64,000 nt of DNA from Candidatus Kurthia intestinigallinarum (GTDB taxonomy: Bacteria; Bacillota; Bacilli; Bacillales_A; Planococcaceae), in the NCBI RefSeq assembly GCF_003991225.1, contig NZ_JTFC01000032.1:62001-126000 (forward strand), written 5' to 3'. The stretch's first letter is position 1. Each line of letters begins with the position of its first letter. This document shows positions 10,164 to 21,273 of the stretch, one piece after another. The notes beneath the pieces were generated by a model. The model saw only the letters and a program-made list of their open reading frames with translations. It ran no database searches and had not been told where the DNA came from. Made by a program: the position numbers and the translations under genes.

Positions 10164-12569
10164 TTGACTGAAAATTTATCACTTTTTGCGGAAGAACCGC
10201 TCTTTGTGGTGGGTCGACCTGTCGTCTCCATTTTTCATAATAAGGAAAATTTATTTTCGATTATTAAGTTGAAAATTCAGGAGACGAATCTAGATTATAA
10301 AGAAAAAGAAATTATCGTCGCAGGTTATTTTCCACAAGTCGATACGGAAGCAATGTATCGTTTTCAAGGAAATTTAAAGCAACATCCAAAATATGGTCTG
10401 CAATTTCAAGCAACTTCATTTGAAAAAGAAATCCCAGCAACTGAAGTAGGTGTTATTCAATATTTATCGAGTGATTTATTTCCTGGTATTGGTAAGCGGA
10501 CAGCAGAACTTATTGTTGAAAAACTAGGACCTAATGCCATAAAAAAAATCATTGAAGAGCCCGATGCTCTTGATAATGTCCCTCGTTTAAAAGATGATAA
10601 AAAAGAGACCCTTCGAGAAGTGTTAAAAGCCAATCTTGGTATGGACCGTATTTTAATCAAGCTTGGCGAATGGGGATTTGGCCCACAGATTGCAGTACGT
10701 ATTTATCAAAAATATGAAGGTAAAACACTTCAAATACTACAAGAAAACCCATATCGCTTAATCGAAGATGTAAGTGGCATCGGTTTTAATCGCGCAGATG
10801 ATTTAGGGGAGCAACTTGAAATTACAGGAGACAATCCTGGACGAATTAAAGCAGCTATACTGCATTTGTTAAATCAAATGGCTTTATCAGAAGGTCATGT
10901 CTATATGGAAGCCCAGGATTTAATTGTTGAGGCAAAAGATTTATTAGAGAAAAGTCAGCCTGTCACGATTTCAATCGAAGCGATTTCAAACTCAATTATT
11001 GATCTTGGAAAAAACGGCAAAATTTGTGGTGAAGCGCAGCGTTTATATATGCCATCTCTTTATTATTCTGAAGTTGGTATTGCTGAGAAATTAGTAGAGT
11101 TAATCGGACGCAATGAGGAGCAATCTGCTTTTCCTAGCTCAGAGATTCGTAAATGGATTGGGGATGCAGAAGAACGCTTTAATGTTGTTTATGCTGAGCC
11201 ACAAGTAAATGCAATTGTGACAGCAATTAATAGTGCTGCGATGATTTTGACAGGGGGACCAGGTACAGGGAAAACAACGGTTGTACGTGGGATTGTAGAT
11301 GTGTATGCTGAACTTCATGGACTTTCACTTGATATGAAAGAATATGATAAGGATACGCCGTTTCCAATTGTTCTTGCCGCACCAACAGGTCGCGCTGCGA
11401 AACGTTTAAGTGAGTCAACAGGGCTTCCTGCGCAAACAATTCACCGCTTATTAGGGTTTACAGGACAAGAAGACCCAGAAGAAGATACAGAACGTGATAT
11501 TGTCGGGAAATTAATTATTATTGATGAAATGTCAATGGTGGATACCTGGCTTGCCTATCAGCTTCTTAGAGCGTTACCTGAAGACTGCCAAATTATTTTT
11601 GTGGGGGATCAGGACCAATTACCACCTGTTGGCCCAGGGCAAGTATTGAAGGATATGCTTGATTCACATGTTGTACCAACTGTGGAATTAGGACAGGTAT
11701 ATCGTCAAGCAAGTGGTTCGTCTATTGTAGAGATGGCCCACCAATTGAAGCATAATATCATTCCACCAGATTTGACAGCTAAGACAGCTGACCGTTCTTT
11801 TATCAAGTCCAACGCAGCTCAAATTCCAACTGTTGTATCACAAATTATTCAAAGTGCGCTGAAAAAAGGATTTACGATTTATGATGTGCAAGTATTAGCC
11901 CCTATGTATCGCGGGGATGCGGGAATTGATAATTTAAATCGTATGATTCAAGAGCTAGTGAATCCGAAAAAGAGTATAAAAACAAAGGAAATGGCTTTTG
12001 GTGATACAACGTACCGTATCGGCGATAAAGTATTGCAACTGGTTAATCAACCACAAAGTAATGTTTTTAACGGAGATATGGGTGAAGTTATTGCAATTTT
12101 CCGTGCGAAAGAAACGACCGATAATGTCGATCAGTTAATTGTGTCATTTGACGGTAATGAAGTGACATATTCACGTGGAGATTTAAGTCAATTAACACTT
12201 GCTTATTGTTGTTCGATTCATAAGTCACAAGGCAGTGAATTTCCAATGGTCATTATGCCTGTTGTAAGAAGCTACTATAAAATGTTGCGAAAAAATTTAC
12301 TATATACTGGATTGACACGTGCCAAAGACTTTTTAATTTTATGTGGAGAACCGGATACCTTTGTTCGAGGTATTCAAAATATTGCAGATGTATCACGTCG
12401 TACAACACTTGTAGGACGATTAACAGGCGAAGTTGAATCTGAAGAAGTACCAGCTGAGGAAACCGATTATTCAACGGATAATTCGGAGAAACGTCTCACA
12501 ACGGAAAATATTACAACTATTGATCCGATGATTGGGATGGACAGCGTGACACCACAGCAGTTTCTTTAA
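10164..12569 (+). CDS. recD2: ATP-dependent RecD-like DNA helicase RecD2
   Basis: About 801 residues. Superfamily 1B 5'-3' helicase of the AddAB-containing, RecBC-free bacteria, involved in replication fork maintenance and repair. It has the RecD2 N-terminal extension with helix-hairpin-helix segments (FPGIGKRTAELI; SGIGFNRADDLG), Walker A GGPGTGKTT near residue 365, Walker B LIIIDEMSMVD, motif III GDQDQLPPVGPG, and the C-terminal SIHKSQGSEF and YTGLTRA motifs. The start is TTG at 10164 (or GTG at 10161) after AGGAGGTGA; the GTG at 10155 overlaps the site. The 35-residue acidic tail after the helicase core looks disordered. Confidence 0.94.
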   Translation: MTENLSLFAEEPLFVVGRPVVSIFHNKENLFSIIKLKIQETNLDYKEKEIIVAGYFPQVDTEAMYRFQGNLKQHPKYGLQFQATSFEKEIPATEVGVIQYLSSDLFPGIGKRTAELIVEKLGPNAIKKIIEEPDALDNVPRLKDDKKETLREVLKANLGMDRILIKLGEWGFGPQIAVRIYQKYEGKTLQILQENPYRLIEDVSGIGFNRADDLGEQLEITGDNPGRIKAAILHLLNQMALSEGHVYMEAQDLIVEAKDLLEKSQPVTISIEAISNSIIDLGKNGKICGEAQRLYMPSLYYSEVGIAEKLVELIGRNEEQSAFPSSEIRKWIGDAEERFNVVYAEPQVNAIVTAINSAAMILTGGPGTGKTTVVRGIVDVYAELHGLSLDMKEYDKDTPFPIVLAAPTGRAAKRLSESTGLPAQTIHRLLGFTGQEDPEEDTERDIVGKLIIIDEMSMVDTWLAYQLLRALPEDCQIIFVGDQDQLPPVGPGQVLKDMLDSHVVPTVELGQVYRQASGSSIVEMAHQLKHNIIPPDLTAKTADRSFIKSNAAQIPTVVSQIIQSALKKGFTIYDVQVLAPMYRGDAGIDNLNRMIQELVNPKKSIKTKEMAFGDTTYRIGDKVLQLVNQPQSNVFNGDMGEVIAIFRAKETTDNVDQLIVSFDGNEVTYSRGDLSQLTLAYCCSIHKSQGSEFPMVIMPVVRSYYKMLRKNLLYTGLTRAKDFLILCGEPDTFVRGIQNIADVSRRTTLVGRLTGEVESEEVPAEETDYSTDNSEKRLTTENITTIDPMIGMDSVTPQQFL

Positions 12570-12578
12570 TACTAGCAA

Positions 12579-12607
12579 TTGACACTGTCAGACCTTTTTC
12601 TTATAAT
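12579..12607 (+). promoter_or_regulatory. Sigma-A promoter of the alaS T-box transcript
   Basis: Perfect TTGACA (12579-12584) and TATAAT (12602-12607) with a 17 bp spacer. Transcription should begin near 12614, about 290 bases before the alaS start. Confidence 0.9.
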
Positions 12608-12613
12608 CATCTA

Positions 12614-12860
12614 TAGAATAGATGAAAACGATGACGGAAAAAGTACGATAGTGATGTAATGCAAAGAAAGAGATTCCTTGGCTGTGAGAATTTCCTTACA
12701 TTTTATCCGAAAGCTAATCCGGAGTGCAGCCAATCACTGCCGTTCACTACGTTATAGTGCTAAGAGATACATAGCTTTTGCTGTGTATGAATTAGGGTGG
12801 TACCACGAAAACGTTCCAATAGTTCTCGTCCCTTTCTAGGGATGGGGACTTTTTATTTTG
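12614..12860 (+). promoter_or_regulatory. T-box riboswitch controlling alaS
   Basis: The leader contains the hallmark T-box AGGGTGGTACCACG (12794-12807), whose GGTACC core lies in the antiterminator bulge. Next is a terminator made of AGTTCTCGTCCC (12821-12832) and GGGATGGGGACT (12839-12850) plus a T-run. The 5' part has the stem I-type GATGAAAACGATGACGG and the internal AGAG...GTGAGAA elements. A GCT triplet at 12713-12715 is a candidate Ala specifier, but I did not fold stem I. Uncharged tRNA-Ala would stabilise the antiterminator and allow alaS transcription. Confidence 0.93.
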
Positions 12861-12904
12861 TGCTTGCCCATCGCAATCATCATTATCTAGGAGGAATATA
12901 TACA

Positions 12905-15565
12905 ATGAAAGCATCAGAAATTCGCCGTAAATATATCGAATTTTTCGTAGAGAAAAATCACAAACAAGAGCCAAGTATGCCGCTTGTTCCAATCAATGAT
13001 AACTCGTTACTATGGATTAACTCAGGTGTTGCTACATTAAAAAAATATTTTGATGGCTCGGTTATCCCAGATAATCCACGTATTACAAATGCACAAAAAG
13101 CCATCCGTACAAATGATATTGAAAACGTTGGTAAAACAGCACGTCACCATACATTCTTTGAAATGCTAGGCAACTTTTCAATTGGCGATTATTTCAAAAA
13201 AGAAGCGATTCACTATGCATGGGAATTCTTAACAGATCCAAAATGGATGGGCTTTGATGGTGAAAAATTATCAATTACAATCCACCCTGAAGATGTAGAA
13301 GCTTATAACATTTGGAAAGATGAAATTGGTATTCCTGAAGAACGATTAATTCGTCTTGAAGGAAACTTCTGGGATATTGGCGAAGGTCCTTCAGGTCCAA
13401 ACTCTGAAATCTTCTATGACCGTGGTGAAGAATATGGTAATGACCCAACAGATCCAGAATTATATACAGGTGGCGAAAACGAACGTTACCTTGAAATTTG
13501 GAACTTAGTATTCTCTCAATTCAACCATAATCCAGATGGCACATACACACCACTTCCAAAACAAAATATTGATACTGGTATGGGACTAGAACGTATGGCA
13601 TCTGTTGTACAAGATGTTCCAACAAACTACGATACAGATTTATTCATGCCTATTATTGAAAAAATCGAACAGTTTGCAAATCGTAAATACAAACGTCCTG
13701 GTGAAGTAGATTTATCAGAAATCTTCGGTTCTGAAGAAGATATCAATACACCATTTAAAGTTATTGCAGACCATATTCGTACTGTTGCATTTGCAATTGG
13801 TGATGGCGCGCTTCCATCAAATGAAGGTCGCGGATATGTATTACGTCGTTTATTACGTCGTGCAGTACGTTATGCAAAACAAATCGGTATTGAAAAACCA
13901 TTTATGTTTGAATTAGTACCAACAGTTGGGGAAGTAATGAAAGATTTCTACCCAGAAGTAGATGAAAAAGAAGCATTTATCATGAAAGTCGTGAAAAATG
14001 AAGAAATCCGTTTCCACGAAACTTTAGATGGTGGTCTTTCTATTTTCAATGAAGTAGTAGAAGCACAAAAAGCTAAAGGTGAAACATTTATCCCTGGTGC
14101 TGACGCATTCCGTTTATATGACACATATGGCTTCCCTGTAGAATTAACAGAAGAGTATGCAGCTGAAGTGGATATGACAGTTGATGCAGCAGGCTTTGAA
14201 AAAGAAATGGAAGCACAACGTGAACGCGCACGCGCAGCACGTCAAGATGTTGATTCAATGCATGTACAATCAGAAGTGTTAGCAAACTTAACGCAAGCAT
14301 CTGAATTTGTTGGATATGACACATTAGATGTAGATACACAAGTTGTTGCAATGATTGCTGGGGGCCAAGAAGTATCAGTAGCATCTGAAGGTGACGAAGT
14401 GTTAGTTATTCTATCTCAAACACCATTCTATGCTGAAATGGGTGGTCAAGTAGCCGATAGTGGTACGATTTCAAACGAAGCATTCACAGCCACTGTAAAA
14501 GACGTACAAAAAGCACCAAATGGTCAACCATTACACACAATCATCGTAGAAAGTGGCGAATTAGCATTAAATGCAGATGTTCATGCAACTGTAAATCGTG
14601 AAGCACGTAATTTAATCGTGAAAAACCATACAGCAACACACTTAATGCAATCTGCACTTAAACATGTATTAGGCGACCACGTTAACCAAGCAGGTTCTTA
14701 TGTAGGTCCAGATCGTCTACGCTTTGACTTCTCTCACTTCGGTGCTGTAACAAAAGAAGAGTTAGAACAAATTGAATTAGAAGTGAATGAAAAGATTTGG
14801 GACGATATCGAAGTAATCATTCAAGAAATGCCAATCGACGCTGCAAAAGCAATGGGCGCAATGGCGTTATTCGGTGAAAAATACGGTGACGTTGTACGCG
14901 TTGTTCAAGTATCAGATTACTCAATCGAACTTTGTGGTGGTATTCATGTAAAACGTTCATCTGAAATTGGTTTATTCAAAATCGTTTCTGAAGGCGGAAT
15001 TGGCGCTGGCACTCGTCGTATCGAGGCAGTAACAGGTAAAGAAGCTTATAAAGCAGTAAAAGAAGAACAACATATACTTGAAGCAACAGCAGCATTAGTA
15101 AAAGCAAATCCAAAAGATTTAATAATGCGCATTGAAAACTTACAACATGAATTAAAAGAACAACAACGTGAAAATGAATCATTATCTGCAAAAATTGCTG
15201 CAGCACAAGCTGGTGACATTTTAAATAATGCGCAAGAAATTAATGGTGTAACGGTTCTTGCAACACGCGTTGAAGCAAAAGACAATGGTCAACTTCGTCA
15301 ATTAATGGATGACTTAAAAGCGAAAATGAACAATGCAGTTATCGTTCTTGGTGCAGTAGCAGATGCCAAAGTTATGCTTTGTGCAGGTGTAACAAAGGAT
15401 ATCGCGGGTAAAGATTACCATGCAGGTAATATCGTGAAATCTGTAGCAGAGCAATGTGGCGGTAAAGGTGGCGGTCGCCCAGATATGGCGATGGCTGGTG
15501 CAAAAGACGCTTCGAAACTTGATACTGCATTACAATCTGTATACGAAACAGTTAAATCAGTTTAA
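12905..15565 (+). CDS. alaS: Alanyl-tRNA synthetase
   Basis: 886 residues from ATG 12905 ([14 protein letters not shown]), with TAGGAGGAATATA upstream. The reading can be extended to 12797, but that runs through the T-box and terminator, so it is rejected. Class II catalytic domain with R(H)[17 protein letters not shown], a tRNA-recognition region, an editing domain with the zinc motif HTATHLMQ...CGGIH (HxxxH...CxxxH), and a C-terminal DHHA1/C-Ala domain with [11 protein letters not shown]. The length is close to B. subtilis AlaRS (878). First gene of a probable unit continuing to ireB and ruvX. Confidence 0.97.
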
Positions 15566-15631
15566 AACCATCATTAATTCCGTTATACTCTAGGTATATG
15601 GTTTCTAATGAATCTGAGAGGGGTGCATTGC

Positions 15632-15901
15632 ATGAGTAAGTTCGATCAAACGATGAAATTTAATTTCCCGGAAGAATCTATGGAACAGGAAGTAAAGGAA
15701 ACAGTGCTTTCTGTACATGCGGCACTAGAAGAAAAAGGCTACAATCCGGTCAATCAAATTGTTGGATATTTATTATCTGGCGATCCGGCCTATATCCCAC
15801 GTCATCAAGATGCACGTGCAAAAATGCGTAAACTTGAGCGTGATGAGATTGTTGAAGAATTAGTAAAGTTTTATATCAAAAAGAATAACGAGGCAAAATA
15901 A
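15632..15901 (+). CDS. ireB: IreB family regulatory phosphoprotein (UPF0297)
   Basis: 89 residues, start ATG 15632 behind GAGAGGGGTG; the longer reading from 15608 crosses that site. IreB is a small protein phosphorylated by PASTA Ser/Thr kinases in Enterococcus and other Firmicutes. Conserved stretches are [13 protein letters not shown], an N-terminal segment with Thr residues, and [23 protein letters not shown]. It overlaps ruvX by one base (TAATG), so the two are probably translationally coupled. Equivalent to B. subtilis yrzL in the same position. Confidence 0.93.
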
Positions 15902-16320
15902 TGCGAGCAATGGGTTTAGACGTCGGTACAAAAACAGTTGGTGTTGCAGTAAGTGACGCACTAGGCTGGACAGCACAAGGTATCGAAACAATTAAAATTA
16001 ATGAAGAAAATGGCGAATTTGGATTGGCACGTGTTGGCGAATTAGTCAAAGAATACCGGGTAACAGAATTTGTTGTTGGCTTCCCAAAAAACATGAATAA
16101 TACAGTAGGTCCACGCGGTGAAGCATCAATCGCATATAAAGAAAAATTAGAAGAAAAATTTTCGCTTCCAGTAACTTTATGGGATGAACGCTTAACAACA
16201 ATGGCTGCAGAACGCGTGTTAATTGAAGCAGATGTACGTCGGAAAAATCGTAAAAAAGTAATCGATAAAATGGCAGCTGTAATGATTTTACAAGGCTATT
16301 TAGATCGCAAATCATTTTAG
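15901..16320 (+). CDS. ruvX: Putative pre-16S rRNA nuclease / Holliday junction resolvase-like RuvX
   Basis: 139 residues, RNase H-like fold. YqgF/RuvX trims the 5' end of 16S rRNA in some species and is related to RuvC. Visible: [19 protein letters not shown] with the first catalytic Asp, [16 protein letters not shown], and LWDERLTT with the catalytic acidic residues. ATG at 15901 shares a base with the ireB stop. Length and position match B. subtilis yrrK. Confidence 0.95.
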
Positions 16321-16331
16321 AGGTGACAAAC

Positions 16332-16613
16332 ATGGAAGAAAATCAAACATTTATTATTGTTGACGAAGAAGGCGCAGAACATCAAGCCGTAATTGTCTAC
16401 AAAATCGAACCATCAGATGAAGGCAATAAATTCGGCAAATCATATATCTTTTATTATGTAGAAGATGAATCAGATGAAGAAGATGTACGCGTATACGTAG
16501 CGTCAATCGACGAAAATGCTGAAGATGGCGAACTAGGCGATATCGAAACACCAGAAGAACAAGAATATATTGAAGATATCTTCAACAACCTAGAAGAAAA
16601 TACAGAAGCATAG
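16332..16613 (+). CDS. yrzB: DUF1292 (YrzB-like) protein, copy 1
   Basis: 93 residues, the same length as B. subtilis YrzB, which sits here after ruvX. ATG 16332 follows AGAGGTGACAAAC; the GTG at 16323 overlaps that site. One DUF1292 domain: E-NQTFIIVDEEGAEHQAVIVYKIE, then a YIFYYVED strand, V(A)SIDE and the closing EDGELGDIETPEEQEYIEDI segment. Very acidic and soluble, with no membrane part. The biochemical role of the family is unknown. It is the first of five DUF1292 genes in a row and probably the ancestral copy, because it alone occupies the conserved position and length. Confidence 0.9.
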   Translation: MEENQTFIIVDEEGAEHQAVIVYKIEPSDEGNKFGKSYIFYYVEDESDEEDVRVYVASIDENAEDGELGDIETPEEQEYIEDIFNNLEENTEA

Positions 16614-16625
16614 GAGACTACGAAC

Positions 16626-16952
16626 GTGAGCGAAGAATTAAACAATGAAAACGTTGTAGCACAAGACATCGAAGCGCAAGAAGATCCATTTAAAGTCATT
16701 ACATTAGTAGATGAAGATGGCAATGAAAATCTATACGAACAACTTTCTGTTATTACAAAAGAAGCAAAAGGTAATCGCTTTGGTAAACGCTTCGCATTAT
16801 ATGCGGCTGTCGGTTACGAAGAAGATGAAACAGGCAAAACAGATATTATTCCAGTAATTTTAACGGACGATGGGGAACTTGATTTAATTGAAAATACTTC
16901 TGAATGGAAGTTTATTGAATCAATTATTGAAGAGCAATCGAAACAATCATAA
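16626..16952 (+). CDS. DUF1292 protein, copy 2
   Basis: 108 residues, starting at GTG 16626 with TAGGAGACTACGAAC upstream. An acidic N-terminal extension of about 20 residues precedes one DUF1292 domain: FKVITLVDEDGNENLYEQLSV, RFGKRFALYAAVGYEEDE, PVILTDDGELDLI, ending in SEWKFIESIIEEQ. It keeps the 'D-E-D-G-N-E' turn and the closing (E)EW..I..I helix shared by all copies. Thirteen bases separate it from copy 1, so it is co-transcribed. Function unknown. Confidence 0.88.
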   Translation: MSEELNNENVVAQDIEAQEDPFKVITLVDEDGNENLYEQLSVITKEAKGNRFGKRFALYAAVGYEEDETGKTDIIPVILTDDGELDLIENTSEWKFIESIIEEQSKQS

Positions 16953-16966
16953 AAGGCGGCAAAAAC

Positions 16967-17518
16967 ATGAGCGAATTAGAACGTTTATATATCCACAATG
17001 ATGAGGATAAAGAAATTGAATTAGTCGTTGTGAAGCGCTTTGAAGCAAATGATAAAAAATACATTATCTTTTATGCGACAAATGATGAAGCAGTTGGCAA
17101 TGAAATCCAAGCTGCAACACTAGTACCGACAGAAATGGGCGGCGAAGCGTTCGGTGAAATTGAAACGCAAGAAGAAATGGATTTAATCAATGATATGTTA
17201 AATGATTTGGTTGAATCAGGTGACTTTAAACCTGAAGAAGGCCAGGGTCACGACCATGACCACAATCATGAAGAACATGACCATGAACATTTAGTAGCAG
17301 AAGATGACGAGGGAAATGAAATCGTTTTTGCAATCGAACGTCGTCTTGAAATCGATGGTAAAAACTACATCGTTTATTATGACGAAAATGAAACGCAACC
17401 TGTTATGCAGGCTGCTGAACTTGTAGATACTGAAAACGGTCAAGAATTATTCCCGATTGACAGTGAAGAAGAATGGACGTTAATTGACGAAGCATTACAC
17501 AATACAGATAACGAATAG
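16967..17518 (+). CDS. DUF1292 protein, copy 3: two domains joined by a His-rich linker
   Basis: 183 residues with two DUF1292 domains, about residues 5-85 and 107-182. Between them is a linker holding seven His in alternation with Asp/Glu/Asn (residues 95-108: H95, H97, H99, H101, H104, H106, H108), resembling metal-binding linkers. Domain 2 starts HEHLVAEDDEGNEIVFA and ends DSEEEWTLIDEAL. The first domain lacks the usual DEDGNE loop spelling (NDEDKEIEL). ATG 16967 follows AAAAGGCGGC. Tandem duplication within the gene seems likely. Metal binding is an inference from the His pattern only. Confidence 0.87.
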   Translation: MSELERLYIHNDEDKEIELVVVKRFEANDKKYIIFYATNDEAVGNEIQAATLVPTEMGGEAFGEIETQEEMDLINDMLNDLVESGDFKPEEGQGHDHDHNHEEHDHEHLVAEDDEGNEIVFAIERRLEIDGKNYIVYYDENETQPVMQAAELVDTENGQELFPIDSEEEWTLIDEALHNTDNE

Positions 17519-17530
17519 GGGATGTCACAG

Positions 17531-18049
17531 ATGGCAGAGCACAACCATGAACATTTAGTAGCAGTAGATGAAAACGGAAACGAAATCGTTTTCGCAGTTA
17601 TCGAACGCTTTGAAGCAAACGATAAAAACTTTATCTTATTTGCAGAAGAAAAAGAAGGCGGCTCTGAAGTTCAAGCAGCGGTTATCGTTGTGGATGCGGA
17701 AGGTAACGAAGATTTACAACCAATCGAATCGCCAGAAGATCAAGCGGCAGTAGCAGAAGTGCTAGAACGTTTATCAAATGGTGTCGATGAAGAAGCATCA
17801 GCTGAACATATCGTAGCAGTAGATGATAATGGTAACGAAATTAAATTTGTTGTTATCGCACGTTTCACTGTTGGCGAAAAAACATATGTTGCATTCGTTG
17901 AAGAAGAAGTAGAAGAACCTGAACTTCAAGTAGCAATCATCACAGAAAATGAAGCTGGCGAACAAGGATTAGCACCTATCGAATCTGATGAAGAGTTTGA
18001 AAAAGTGCAAGAAATCTTAAGTGAAATCTTATCTGGTCACGAAGACTAA
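17531..18049 (+). CDS. DUF1292 protein, copy 4: two domains, His at N-terminus
   Basis: 172 residues from ATG 17531, about ten bases after AGGGGATG; the ATG at 17522 is inside that site. Two DUF1292 domains (about 5-85 and 92-170), each starting (H/E)-H-(L/I)-V-A-V-D-(E/D)-N-G-N-E-I. The N-terminus has H4, H6 and H8 and closely resembles the linker and second-domain start of copy 3, also at DNA level, so copy 4 probably arose from copy 3 (or the reverse). The spacing to copy 3 is 12 bases. Function unknown. Confidence 0.87.
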   Translation: MAEHNHEHLVAVDENGNEIVFAVIERFEANDKNFILFAEEKEGGSEVQAAVIVVDAEGNEDLQPIESPEDQAAVAEVLERLSNGVDEEASAEHIVAVDDNGNEIKFVVIARFTVGEKTYVAFVEEEVEEPELQVAIITENEAGEQGLAPIESDEEFEKVQEILSEILSGHED

Positions 18050-18063
18050 GAGGAGCGTTATAA

Positions 18064-18351
18064 ATGGCACAAGACTTTCATGGCCTAACATTCGTTGAAT
18101 ACGATGAAGACGGCGGCGAAACAGTTTACAAAATTTTATCTCGTGTTGAACCAACAAATAGTGAAAAAACGTATTTAATTTTCTGTGAAGATACAGATGA
18201 TGAAACGGCAGAAATATTTATTGAAGCAGCAGAAGTATTACCAGCAGATGATGGTGGCGAAGCACTTTTTGAGATTGAATCAGAAGAAGAATGGGAAATG
18301 CTTGAAGAAGTTATTAATACCATTATGAGTTTAGACGATTCAGCAAACTAA
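18064..18351 (+). CDS. DUF1292 protein, copy 5
   Basis: 95 residues with one DUF1292 domain (FHGLTFVEYDEDGGETVYKI; TYLIFCEDTDDE; LPADDGGEALFEIESEEEWEMLEEV). ATG 18064 after AGAGGAGCG. It is the last of the five-gene run and is followed by a terminator, so the group ends as one transcript. Strongly acidic and cytoplasmic. Function unknown. Confidence 0.88.
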   Translation: MAQDFHGLTFVEYDEDGGETVYKILSRVEPTNSEKTYLIFCEDTDDETAEIFIEAAEVLPADDGGEALFEIESEEEWEMLEEVINTIMSLDDSAN

Positions 18352-18359
18352 TTATAAAG

Positions 18360-18390
18360 ATGAGGCATCGTTTTGTTGCCTCATTTTTTT
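18360..18390 (+). terminator. Terminator at the end of the DUF1292 run
   Basis: ATGAGGCA (18360-18367) pairs with TGCCTCAT (18377-18384), followed by T's. Confidence 0.85.
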
Positions 18391-18443
18391 GTGCAATCGA
18401 ACAGAACCATGTATAATGAAATGTGGAAAAAGGAGGGTATGTT

Positions 18444-19559
18444 GTGGATTCTCAATCGTCTGAAAAACAACTGAAAAAATTAAAGCAACGTCAAAGCGAG
18501 CAAAAAATTGTGAAAAAAATCGTATTAATTACAACAGCAATTATTATCGCGCTCGTATTAATTGTCGGTGTAGGTGGATATTTCTACGTACAAGGTGCAT
18601 TAAAACCTGTCGATACAGACTCTGATAAAAATGTTAAAATTGAAGTGCCAATTGGGTCATCAATTGATACAATCGCCGCAACATTAGAAGATAAGGGAAT
18701 TATTAAGAATGCTAAAATCTTCAAATATTATACGAAATTTAATAATGGTGCAGGATTCCAAGCTGGTACTTATAAATTGTCTCCAGCAATGACAATCGAA
18801 GAAATTATTAAGAGTTTAAAAACTGGTAAGGTTTACCGAACACCAGAGTTTACATTAACCGTACCAGAAGGGCTTACAATCGATCAAATTGCTGAACGTG
18901 TTGCAAAAAATACGAATTATTCAAAAGAACAATTTATGGATTTAGTAACAAGCAAAGCATTTATTAAGAATATGAAAAAGCAATTCCCTGATACAGTAAC
19001 AAAAGCAGTCAATGATAAAGATATTCGTTATGCATTAGAAGGATATTTATATCCTGCTACTTATTCATTCTATGAAAAAGAACCATCACTTGAAACAATC
19101 GCTACAGATATGGTTAAGCAAACCGATGCAATCGTCCAACAATACTTACCAACATTAAAAGAAAAGAAAATGTCGGTACATGAATTCTTAACATTTGCAT
19201 CGTTACTTGAGCGTGAAGCAACAGCAAGTACAGATCGTGAAACCATTGCAAGTGTATTTTATAATCGTATTGAAGAAGGGATGCCACTTCAAACGGACCC
19301 AACTGTATTATATGCATTAGGAAAACATAAAAATCGAGTATTATACAAAGATTTAAAAGTGAAAAATCCGTATAACACATATACAAATAAAGGGTTACCA
19401 CCAGGTCCAATTGCAAATGCAGGTATTGAATCATTAAAAGCAACAATTGACCCAGCTTCAACAGAGTATGTTTATTTTGTAGCAGATTCAGATGGTAAAA
19501 ATCACTTTGCTAAAACATATGCAGAACATCAAAAAAATGTAGCAAAATACATTAAATAG
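18444..19559 (+). CDS. mltG: Endolytic murein transglycosylase MltG
   Basis: 371 residues, start GTG 18444 after AAAAGGAGGG; the upstream GTG 18423 precedes that site. MltG cleaves nascent peptidoglycan glycan strands at the outer membrane face and sets chain length. Cytoplasmic Lys-rich N-terminus (about 1-30), one membrane helix (about 31-54), a LysM-like subdomain (IEVPIGSSIDTIAATLEDKG), then the YceG catalytic domain with the Glu in LTFASLLEREA and the RIEEGMPLQTDPTVLYA and YNTYTNKGLPPGPIANAG motifs. Matches B. subtilis yrrL (about 360) in place and length. Confidence 0.95.
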   Translation: MDSQSSEKQLKKLKQRQSEQKIVKKIVLITTAIIIALVLIVGVGGYFYVQGALKPVDTDSDKNVKIEVPIGSSIDTIAATLEDKGIIKNAKIFKYYTKFNNGAGFQAGTYKLSPAMTIEEIIKSLKTGKVYRTPEFTLTVPEGLTIDQIAERVAKNTNYSKEQFMDLVTSKAFIKNMKKQFPDTVTKAVNDKDIRYALEGYLYPATYSFYEKEPSLETIATDMVKQTDAIVQQYLPTLKEKKMSVHEFLTFASLLEREATASTDRETIASVFYNRIEEGMPLQTDPTVLYALGKHKNRVLYKDLKVKNPYNTYTNKGLPPGPIANAGIESLKATIDPASTEYVYFVADSDGKNHFAKTYAEHQKNVAKYIK

Positions 19560-19568
19560 TATTTAGAG

Positions 19569-19601
19569 AAAGAGTATTGCACAATGCAATGCTCTTTTTT
19601 T
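19569..19601 (+). terminator. Terminator of mltG
   Basis: AAAGAGTATTGCA (19569-19581) pairs with TGCAATGCTCTTT, followed by further T's. Confidence 0.85.
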
Positions 19602-19696
19602 ACGAAGTCGTGACACAATTGTTGTACTCTCGCTTTTTAGAGGCATTTATGATAGGATAAAGTGTATTTTGTATAGATGTAAGGAGAGCGTTAGAC

Positions 19697-20329
19697 GTGA
19701 ACATTTCAGATGCATACACGAACTCCTTCATTTCTGAGCGAAGTGATTTATTGCTAGAAATGGAACAGTTCGCAGAAGATAATTATGTGCCAATTATGCA
19801 ATTACCGGCCATTGAAACATTGCTACAAATGTTACGCATTCAACAGCCTAAACGAATTTTAGAAGTAGGTAGTGCAATTGGCTATTCTGCTATTCGTATG
19901 GCAAGAGCAGTAAAACAGTGTAAAATTGTTACAATTGAACGTGACGAGACACGTATTGCGAATGCGAAAGGTTTTATAGCACGTTCAGAGGAAGCGGAGC
20001 GCATTGAGCTCATTGAAGGAGACGCATTAGAAGTAGATATCGCATCAAATCATGAAGCCTTTGACGCCGTCTTTATCGATGCGGCAAAAGGGCAATATCA
20101 AAAATTCTTTGATAAATATAGCCCACTTGTAAAACAAGGTGGTATTTTATATATCGACAACATGTATATGCATGGTTTGTCGGATTTAGACATGAAAGAT
20201 GTACCTAGAAGAAAAAGAACAATGATTCGTAACCTACACCACTTTGCTGATTGGGTCATTCAAAACGACGATTACCAATCAACATTTTTCCCAATAGGTG
20301 ATGGGTTATTAGTTTGTATTAAAAAGTAA
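19697..20329 (+). CDS. trmR: tRNA 5-hydroxyuridine methyltransferase
   Basis: 210 residues, class I SAM-dependent O-methyltransferase of the COMT-like family. In B. subtilis TrmR (YrrM) methylates 5-hydroxyuridine-34 to 5-methoxyuridine in several tRNAs. Visible: SAM motif I RILEVGSAIGYSAIRMA, VTIERDETR, and metal-binding FDAVFIDAAKGQY followed by LYIDNMYMHG. Start GTG 19697 after AAGGAGAGCG. It is followed 14 bases later by the two U32 genes that make its substrate, so the three form one tRNA-modification unit. Confidence 0.93.
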   Translation: MNISDAYTNSFISERSDLLLEMEQFAEDNYVPIMQLPAIETLLQMLRIQQPKRILEVGSAIGYSAIRMARAVKQCKIVTIERDETRIANAKGFIARSEEAERIELIEGDALEVDIASNHEAFDAVFIDAAKGQYQKFFDKYSPLVKQGGILYIDNMYMHGLSDLDMKDVPRRKRTMIRNLHHFADWVIQNDDYQSTFFPIGDGLLVCIKK

Positions 20330-20343
20330 GAGGTGACCTATCG

Positions 20344-21273
20344 ATGAACAAACCTGAATTACTCGTAACACCAAAATCCGTTTCACATGTAGAAGCATTA
20401 CTTGAAGCAGGAGCAGATGCCTTTTTAATTGGTGAAGAAAAATTTGGTTTACGTTTAGCAGGCGAATTTACATTGGAAGATGTAAAAACAATTACTACAT
20501 TAGTCCATGCGGCAGGCAAGAAAGTATATGTCGCAATGAATGCGATTTTTCATAACGATCGTGTGCCACTGCTTGCACCTTATATGAAAGCTATTGATGA
20601 AATTGGTGTAGATGCCATTTATTTTGGTGATCCCGCAGTTGTTATGACAAAGCGCGAGTTAGACTCTAAAACGCCTTTACACTGGGATGCTGAGACGATT
20701 GCAACCAACTGGTTTCAAGCTAATTATTGGGGCAAACGAGGCGCTACACGTGCGTATCTTGCACGCGAGCTAGGTGTAGAAGAAATTATTGAAATTAAAG
20801 AAAATGCAGATGTGGAAATTGAAGTACAAGTACATGGAATGACTTGTATGTTCCAGTCTAAACGTCCTTTATTAGGTAATTATTTTTTATACCAAGGTAA
20901 AGCTATGGAAGTAGAAAATCGTAAAGAAGCACGTAATATGTTTTTATACGATAAAGAACGTGGCAATAAATATCCGATTTATGAAGATTATAATGGTACA
21001 CATATCTACTCACCAGCAGATATGTGTATCATTGATGAGTTAGAAGAATTATTTGAAGCAAATATTGATGTGTTCCGTATTGAAGGGGTCCTTCATGAAG
21101 AAGCTTATATTGTAACGGTTGTAGAACAATACCGTAAAGCAATTGATGCATATTTCGAAAACGAAGATACTTATATCGATATGAAAGAAGAATTAGTCGA
21201 AGCGATTGAAGCGATTCAACCAGCATTACGTCCAATGGATACAGGCTTCTTCTTCAAAGAGACAGTTTACTAG
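20344..21273 (+). CDS. trhP1: U32 family protein TrhP1, tRNA hydroxylation component
   Basis: 309 residues, peptidase U32 family, equivalent to B. subtilis YrrN. With TrhP2 it is needed for prephenate-dependent 5-hydroxylation of wobble uridine in tRNA; despite its name no protease activity is implied. Visible: PELLVTPKSVSHVEALLEAGADAF at the start and the U32 core EVQVHGMTCMFQSKR. This core lacks the multi-Cys pattern (SGRC...GGCCQSCR) of its neighbour TrhP2, so it probably does not bind an iron-sulfur cluster by itself. ATG 20344 after AAGAGGTGACC. Confidence 0.9.
   Translation: MNKPELLVTPKSVSHVEALLEAGADAFLIGEEKFGLRLAGEFTLEDVKTITTLVHAAGKKVYVAMNAIFHNDRVPLLAPYMKAIDEIGVDAIYFGDPAVVMTKRELDSKTPLHWDAETIATNWFQANYWGKRGATRAYLARELGVEEIIEIKENADVEIEVQVHGMTCMFQSKRPLLGNYFLYQGKAMEVENRKEARNMFLYDKERGNKYPIYEDYNGTHIYSPADMCIIDELEELFEANIDVFRIEGVLHEEAYIVTVVEQYRKAIDAYFENEDTYIDMKEELVEAIEAIQPALRPMDTGFFFKETVY

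Follow-up and report, generated by a model that had tools for sequence, protein, structure and literature searches.

How did one bacterium come to hold seven copies of the same protein domain in a single row of genes, and what might they do there? The question is raised by a 64,000-nucleotide (nt) stretch of the genome of Candidatus Kurthia intestinigallinarum (contig NZ_JTFC01000032.1, positions 62,001 to 126,000; hereafter the window), in which seven DUF1292/UPF0473 (YrzB) domains are encoded by five adjacent plus-strand genes at 16332-18351, in the pattern 1-1-2-2-1 (domains per gene), directly downstream of ruvX and upstream of a terminator-like stem-loop. From the comparisons presented here, it is highly probable that YrzB underwent a lineage-specific tandem expansion whose copies one Kurthia clade has kept and diversified. 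Our judgement is evenly balanced on the whole statement, in which the retained and diversified array supplies RuvX with acidic accessory proteins, some of which bind metal.

The genes of the array and the two preceding them are listed below, where the Kurthia-free profile is one trained on 53 single-domain genes from other genera, with zero Kurthia rows and the database size set to 10000.

15632-15901, plus strand: ireB/reoM homologue (yrzL); Pfam IreB, E = 1.4e-35
15901-16320, plus strand: ruvX (yrrK); Pfam RuvX, E = 4.8e-46
16332-16613, plus strand: copy 1, 93 amino acids (aa), single DUF1292 domain; PF06949, E = 4.6e-5; Kurthia-free profile, E = 1.2e-13; canonical YrzB half of the domain tree, on a long stem
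16626-16952, plus strand: copy 2, 108 aa, GTG start, single DUF1292 domain; no Pfam match; NCBIfam, E = 2.6e-10, under the cut-off; Kurthia-free profile, E = 7e-15; canonical half of the tree
16967-17518, plus strand: copy 3, 183 aa, double DUF1292 gene; PF06949, E = 2.4e-15, two stretches; Kurthia-free profile, E = 9.4e-13, two domains; second-paralogue half of the tree
17246-17293, plus strand: histidine (His)-rich linker GHDHDHNHEEHDHEHL between the copy 3 domains, with 7 His; read from the sequence
17531-18049, plus strand: copy 4, 172 aa, double DUF1292 gene; PF06949, E = 3.5e-24, two stretches; AlphaFold model with two beta5-alpha units
17531-17557, plus strand: HxHxH N-terminus of copy 4, MAEHNHEHL; read from the sequence, with the same motif in relatives
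18064-18351, plus strand: copy 5, 95 aa, single DUF1292 domain; PF06949, E = 3.9e-8; AlphaFold beta5-alpha model
18352-18395, plus strand: terminator-like stem-loop and T run downstream of copy 5; fold -15.2 kcal/mol, z = -4.9

This layout agrees with an original prediction made from the letters of the DNA alone, which had described a row of five genes with seven DUF1292 domains, single in copies 1, 2 and 5 and double in copies 3 and 4, next to ireB and ruvX. The gaps from ruvX onward are 11, 12, 14, 12 and 14 nt, matching the 11-14 bases proposed, and the domains of copy 3 extend over aa 5-83 and aa 104-182. The high acidity ascribed to all copies was confirmed by calculation, with isoelectric points (pI) of 4.05-4.06, the lower of which we take to be the floor of the program used, and net charges of -18 to -44. 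A stem-loop with a T run is indeed present at the array end, where a shared terminator had been placed; it escaped the consensus terminator scan, probably owing to its loop.

Family membership of the copies was examined with several profiles. In the Pfam scan of the five array proteins, PF06949 exceeded its threshold in all but copy 2, for which there was no match; copies 3 and 4 were each hit over two stretches. All five proteins are matched by the NCBIfam PRK13678 (UPF0473) models (PRK13678.1-2 for copy 2), and none reaches the curated cut-offs of these equivalog models (best 54.6 bits vs 88). We took these models as subgroup models, so that scores below the cut-off only lower the case for the same subgroup. 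The Kurthia-free profile matched the five proteins at E = 7.6e-16 to 9.4e-13 and recovered all seven domains, single and double as predicted; a profile with window rows in its training gave lower E values (4e-17 or less). The profile from alignment A3, which includes window rows, hit exactly seven places in the genome, every one inside the array. Pfam thus bears out four of the five assignments and fails on copy 2, which by the NCBIfam and Kurthia-free profile matches clearly belongs to the DUF1292/UPF0473 family. Searches against PHROGs gave two weak matches only, both to copy 4 (E = 1.9e-4 and 0.099) and both to families of unknown function.

To place the array among related bacteria, ruvX and its downstream DNA from 60 relatives of the same family were surveyed together with the window (n = 61). 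As a result, a single one-domain gene was found in 28 genomes, 1-2 in 19, 1-1 in six (Viridibacillus and genus g17), 1-1-1 in four and 1-1-2-2-1 in four. The genus Kurthia is split, four of the eight species surveyed carrying 1-1-2-2-1 and the other four 1-1-1. Among 261 genomes of the family, seven copies occur only in four Kurthia, the next highest count being five; the five-gene array is not common. Arrays of two to three domains (1-1 or 1-2) are ordinary in this bacterial family, being carried by 25 of the 61 genomes. The domain itself is present in 299/299 sampled genomes of the class and in 114/119 of the phylum sample. The proposal that the locus is an undescribed system is therefore too strong, given that DUF1292 is found throughout the class sample, follows ruvX almost everywhere looked and commonly forms small arrays; what is special about this array is only its seven-domain size and its His-rich tracts. 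Two further observations concern DUF1292 copy number elsewhere. Each of six family f36 genomes (G159, G169, G189, G199, G209 and G228) gave four to five DUF1292 matches, for the most part scattered over the genome, and in 8/40 other class genomes (loci L201, L205, L215, L218, L222, L224, L228 and L235) a second, divergent DUF1292-like open reading frame (ORF) lies right downstream of the first, with weak E values of 1e-3 to 6e-10.

A high copy number could also arise from neutral or decaying duplicates or from misassembly, and nothing else speaks for this origin. The array is common to three further assemblies with its frames intact, and because the same array stands in four assemblies it is no assembly artefact. 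In pairwise comparisons of the four species that carry it, dN/dS (the ratio of nonsynonymous to synonymous substitution rates) is 0.029-0.212 for copies 1-5 and well below 1 for each gene across the six species pairs, showing purifying selection, as estimated from these alignments, on every copy. Drift or artefact as an explanation is therefore close to negligible. The controls gave 0.009-0.031 for ireB, 0.033-0.082 for ruvX and 0.055-0.117 for mltG, all by the Nei-Gojobori method (NG86), with two control genes beginning off a start codon. Because dS frequently approaches or exceeds 1, these dN/dS estimates are only approximate, which weakens this part of the case for retention.

The history of the array was reconstructed from two trees. 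In a species tree of ireB, ruvX and mltG, built by a short search with no bootstrap, the 1-1-2-2-1 species form a group with Shimodaira-Hasegawa-like approximate likelihood ratio test (SH-aLRT) support of 100 and are joined to the 1-1-1 species at 92; these Kurthia together nest inside the 1-1 genera (SH-aLRT 97 and 100). The species tree shows a stepwise growth of the array from 1 through 1-1 and 1-1-1 to 1-1-2-2-1. In the domain tree, which was built on few columns, a well-supported split (96/100) has on one side domains 3a, 3b, 4a, 4b and 5, gene 2 of the 1-1 genera and genes 2 and 3 of the 1-1-1 Kurthia, and on the other, canonical YrzB side copies 1 and 2. The tree thereby shows two paralogue lineages, copies 1-2 and copies 3-5. 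Copies 1 and 2 sit on stems of 1.69 and 1.2 changes per column with little variation inside the clade, a pattern that reads as a burst of change followed by conservation; the first gene of the 1-1-1 Kurthia, unlike both, has no long stem. The approximately unbiased (AU) test did not reject grouping copy 1 (p = 0.485) or copy 2 (p = 0.369) with that gene. In the domain tree, the Lysinibacillus-type genera have their doubled genes in the half opposite to copies 3 and 4, and a single origin for all double genes was not rejected (AU test, p = 0.117). The gene fusions in the 1-2 genera and in the window's clade nevertheless look independent, because in the species tree they are separated by species with single-domain genes.

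Were the copies equivalent, several could have been kept simply because more YrzB is needed. Codon adaptation, referenced to the genome's own ribosomal cluster and ranked among the 53 window ORFs that reach 150 aa (including two array genes), places copies 1-5 at the 87th-96th percentile, next to 96 for alaS, 57 for ireB, 81 for ruvX and 72 for mltG, and this high adaptation suggests, indirectly, good expression of all five copies. The tight spacing with a stem-loop at the array end only is also in line with dosage, as is the table of most abundant transcripts in PMC5670726, which includes a DUF1292 gene of Paenibacillus riograndensis. Pure dosage predicts near-identical copies, however, and the other six domains are just 23-30% identical to copy 5. 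The lineages are position-specific, and the long stems of copies 1 and 2 are lacking in the first gene of the 1-1-1 Kurthia.

Domains 3b and 4a of the window bear on the same question from both sides. Identity between the two is 85% along a stretch of 61 nt. Taken over the entire domain, each has 0.70-0.88 nt identity to its orthologues vs 0.53-0.62 to the other, so they have not been homogenised along their length. In the first 51 nt (HEHL...VFA; 17282-17332 vs 17546-17596), the window's 3b resembles the 4a of the same array (0.88) more closely than it does any 3b orthologue from the three other species (0.76-0.84), which counts against full divergence of the copies and makes a short local gene conversion possible in the window's species; a 3b stretch derived from 4a would suit dosage. 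Taken together, we regard dosage alone as unlikely. The functional diversification that the original prediction had offered along with expansion is supported by the separate lineages, the purifying selection and the position-wise grouping of orthologues, and the dosage need offered beside it is possible from the codon adaptation.

For the function of a diversified array, the neighbourhood gives the first hint. A DUF1292 start follows ruvX on the same strand in 61/61 family genomes (within 435 nt, median 13; at most 25 nt in 46) and in 38/40 other class genomes (within 67 nt, median 12; at most 25 nt in 35), and ruvX lies upstream of DUF1292 in 29 of the 30 best-scoring phylum loci. Copy 1, starting 11 nt after ruvX, occupies the family's usual position. 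YqgF/RuvX also matures 16S rRNA in Escherichia coli. The linkage hints at a shared pathway, and an accessory role of the DUF1292 domains for RuvX is at present doubtful. Several findings weigh against such a role: in the two exceptions (G065 and G088, of one bacterial family) DUF1292 and ruvX are on separate contigs; among 14 control genomes RuvX is present in 10 and DUF1292 in three; three of the five phylum genomes without DUF1292 have RuvX; and ireB and mltG are also near the array, so that neighbourhood does not prove interaction.

Two candidate links around ruvX were rejected. Open frames spanning ruvX and DUF1292 occur on the minus strand in two genomes of family f59 (L286, 274-1269; L279, 434-2308), whose sequences look GC-rich, but the 35 aligned linker codons of this apparent RuvX-DUF1292 fusion are without constraint (dN/dS 1.46; 4, 5 and 3 differences by codon position). 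A Fur neighbour in clostridial loci was not borne out either, since no ORF in the ~3.2 kb stretches of the 30 phylum loci showed a Fur-type motif.

The same gene order would also suit a role in cell-wall control, in which the copies work with IreB/ReoM and MltG in PASTA-kinase signalling. ireB was recognised in 61/61 and mltG in 60/61 family stretches, mltG was found in 14 of the 30 phylum loci (~3.2 kb each), and PMC7286690 reports that ReoM governs MurA stability. DUF1292 nonetheless stays by ruvX where the next ORF is not recognised as mltG (e.g. L252, L257 and L261), and the papers seen in part through our literature searches included no study linking DUF1292 to the PASTA-kinase pathway. 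We consider this role quite improbable.

The strong acidity of the proteins (calculated pI ~4.05) suggests another possibility, namely that they mimic nucleic acid and fill the active site of RuvX or of another nucleic-acid-binding protein, different copies serving different targets or degrees of tightness; the negative charge and the closeness to a nuclease gene across class and phylum are consistent with this. Acidic pI alone is a poor indicator. The AlphaFold model of copy 5 has five strands and a C-terminal helix (mean predicted local distance difference test score, pLDDT, 76.3), and that of copy 4 has two such beta5-alpha units (mean pLDDT 76.7; predicted template modelling score, pTM, 0.42). 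A PDB sequence search with copy 4 gave no match. Foldseek found nothing at E <= 0.001 in the PDB (copies 4 and 5) or among viral models (copy 5), a result that speaks against the mimic, weakly given a mean pLDDT of only ~76, and that also lends no help to a RuvX partner. The top PDB rows were Pur-alpha, not significant (E = 0.49 for copy 5 and 0.016 for copy 4; template modelling, TM, scores ~0.2-0.4), and the best VIA-align Z scores (5.3 and 5.4) were to a histone acetyltransferase and Spindlin1, from which no fold claim is drawn. A mimic or nuclease inhibitor is thus an improbable explanation. Among the viral models, the one closest in structure to copy 5 was A0A127AWQ7, an uncharacterised protein of Bacillus phage SP-15 (E = 0.038, probability 0.99), perhaps a phage-borne DUF1292 judging from the models.

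A further lead comes from the tracts rich in His and cysteine (Cys). The copy 3 linker retains 6-7 His in all four species while its length and order vary, as when composition rather than sequence is under selection. The HxHxH motif at the start of copy 4 recurs in gene 2 of both the 1-1-1 Kurthia and the 1-1 genera. Tails were surveyed in 171 genomes (61 of the family, 40 of other class members and 70 of the phylum), of which 168 yielded 226 frames. The phylum set was taken in order of profile score, blind to the tail, skipping four rows (G430 and G388, genus already taken; G103 and G062, own class); starts were chosen by ribosome-site score, and relatives are not independent. Outside the family, His makes up 7.1% of N-terminal tail residues vs 1.3% of bodies, and Cys 1.8% vs 0.4%. 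Tails with at least three His/Cys were found there in 13/116 proteins from 10/72 bacterial families, compared with a mean of 2.67 and a maximum of 9 such proteins in 2000 within-protein shuffles. Tails such as HDHDHEHEHEH and CECGCDCDC stand at the same place in different DUF1292 proteins, and because His-type and Cys-type tails share that place, metal binding is suggested as a predicted property of both. What is new here is the HxH tracts in the copy 3 linker and the copy 4 N terminus, together with the recurrence of His/Cys tails in other families.

Metal binding by the HxH tracts of copies 3 and 4 is a tentative proposal, which we place somewhat below an even chance. Tails rich in His/Cys are absent from 62/72 other bacterial families, so metal binding cannot be the core DUF1292 function; one protein (G061) contributes 22 of the 86 tail His counted; and the strict definition leaves copy 4 of the window, with just two His ahead of strand 1, outside the 21 rich tails. 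All three points weaken the proposal. The protein in question, a DUF1292 member, is the product of the gene following ruvX at L200 (G061), and its N-terminal tail holds the 22 His. Cys-rich N-terminal tails (CDCGC, CECGCDCDC and similar, some also with His) were seen on DUF1292 proteins at L244, L247, L255, L263 and L270.

If these strands are joined, the diversified array could work as follows. Every domain would form a small beta5-alpha protein of strong acidity, produced along with RuvX and serving this nuclease, or the pathway it belongs to, as an accessory factor. Divalent metal would be bound by the HxH tracts, and the original job would be split between the plain acidic copies 1, 2 and 5 and the metal-binding double-domain copies 3 and 4, with dosage as a secondary gain. 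A bolder generalisation, which we find rather far-fetched, would make DUF1292 a phylum-wide, unrecognised class of metal-binding acidic RuvX partners, whose body docks on the nuclease and whose interchangeable His/Cys tail in some lineages supplies or withholds metal, Kurthia then having a graded set of seven modules.

Three further features lie upstream of ireB, ahead of alaS.

12579-12607, plus strand: perfect sigma-70-type promoter (12/12 consensus match) upstream of alaS, possible start of the upstream operon
12622-12836, plus strand: T-box leader upstream of alaS (91.2 bits, E = 8.6e-21), just under the Rfam gathering score of 93
12821-12850: terminator-like stem at the alaS T-box leader

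Transcription from this promoter may read on into the array. The Rfam scan of 12000-21000 gave nothing at gathering scores, and promoter-like sites in 12500-20400 numbered 21 vs 26.5 in shuffles, i.e. no excess.

In the papers seen in part through literature searches, no function was found for DUF1292/YrzB/UPF0473, and no description of this Kurthia array, with Kurthia comparative genomics judged by title; no paper naming COG3906 was found. A table entry in PMC3814617 gives yrzB as a 'putative anti-sigma factor', and yrzB is also named in a passage of PMC3871023. A DUF1292 gene is a transposon-screen match under bile salts in an excerpt of PMC10294668, DUF1292 is also named in a passage of PMC13014144, and the term is absent from the main text of PMC8528326. 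DUF1292 is therefore a domain nearly universal in the sampled phylum genomes and without a function found in the literature. The 1-1-1 and 1-1-2-2-1 Kurthia form a natural series whose separate genes seem to share out the family's jobs, and roles possibly masked by a single gene in Bacillus subtilis could be told apart there by single deletions. The recurrence of His/Cys tails is a concrete biochemical hint for the family and the most useful new lead.

Compared with known systems, the array shares with single-copy YrzB/UPF0473/DUF1292 the domain, the length of the single copies, the acidity and the order of ireB upstream, ruvX before and mltG after, but differs in having seven domains in five genes, two doubled genes, copies 1-2 on long stems and the His-rich linker of copy 3. 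The 1-2 arrays (among named loci, those of Lysinibacillus, Ureibacillus, Solibacillus and Caryophanon) likewise have a doubled DUF1292 gene after a single one, yet their domains lie in the other half of the domain tree from the doubled genes of the window. The 1-1 arrays of Viridibacillus and genus g17 have just two single-domain genes, the second of which, with its HxH N-terminus, is the apparent ancestor type of copies 3-5. UPF0473 proteins with a His-rich N-terminus (L195, Enterococcus raffinosus; G086, presumably streptococcal) resemble the array in an HxHxH before strand 1, but are single copies after ruvX with an N-terminal tail only, whereas the window has an inter-domain linker. Finally, the array may work like metal-binding His-rich proteins, without being a member of them, the likeness lying in the His tract of the copy 3 linker, whose composition is conserved in 4/4 species.

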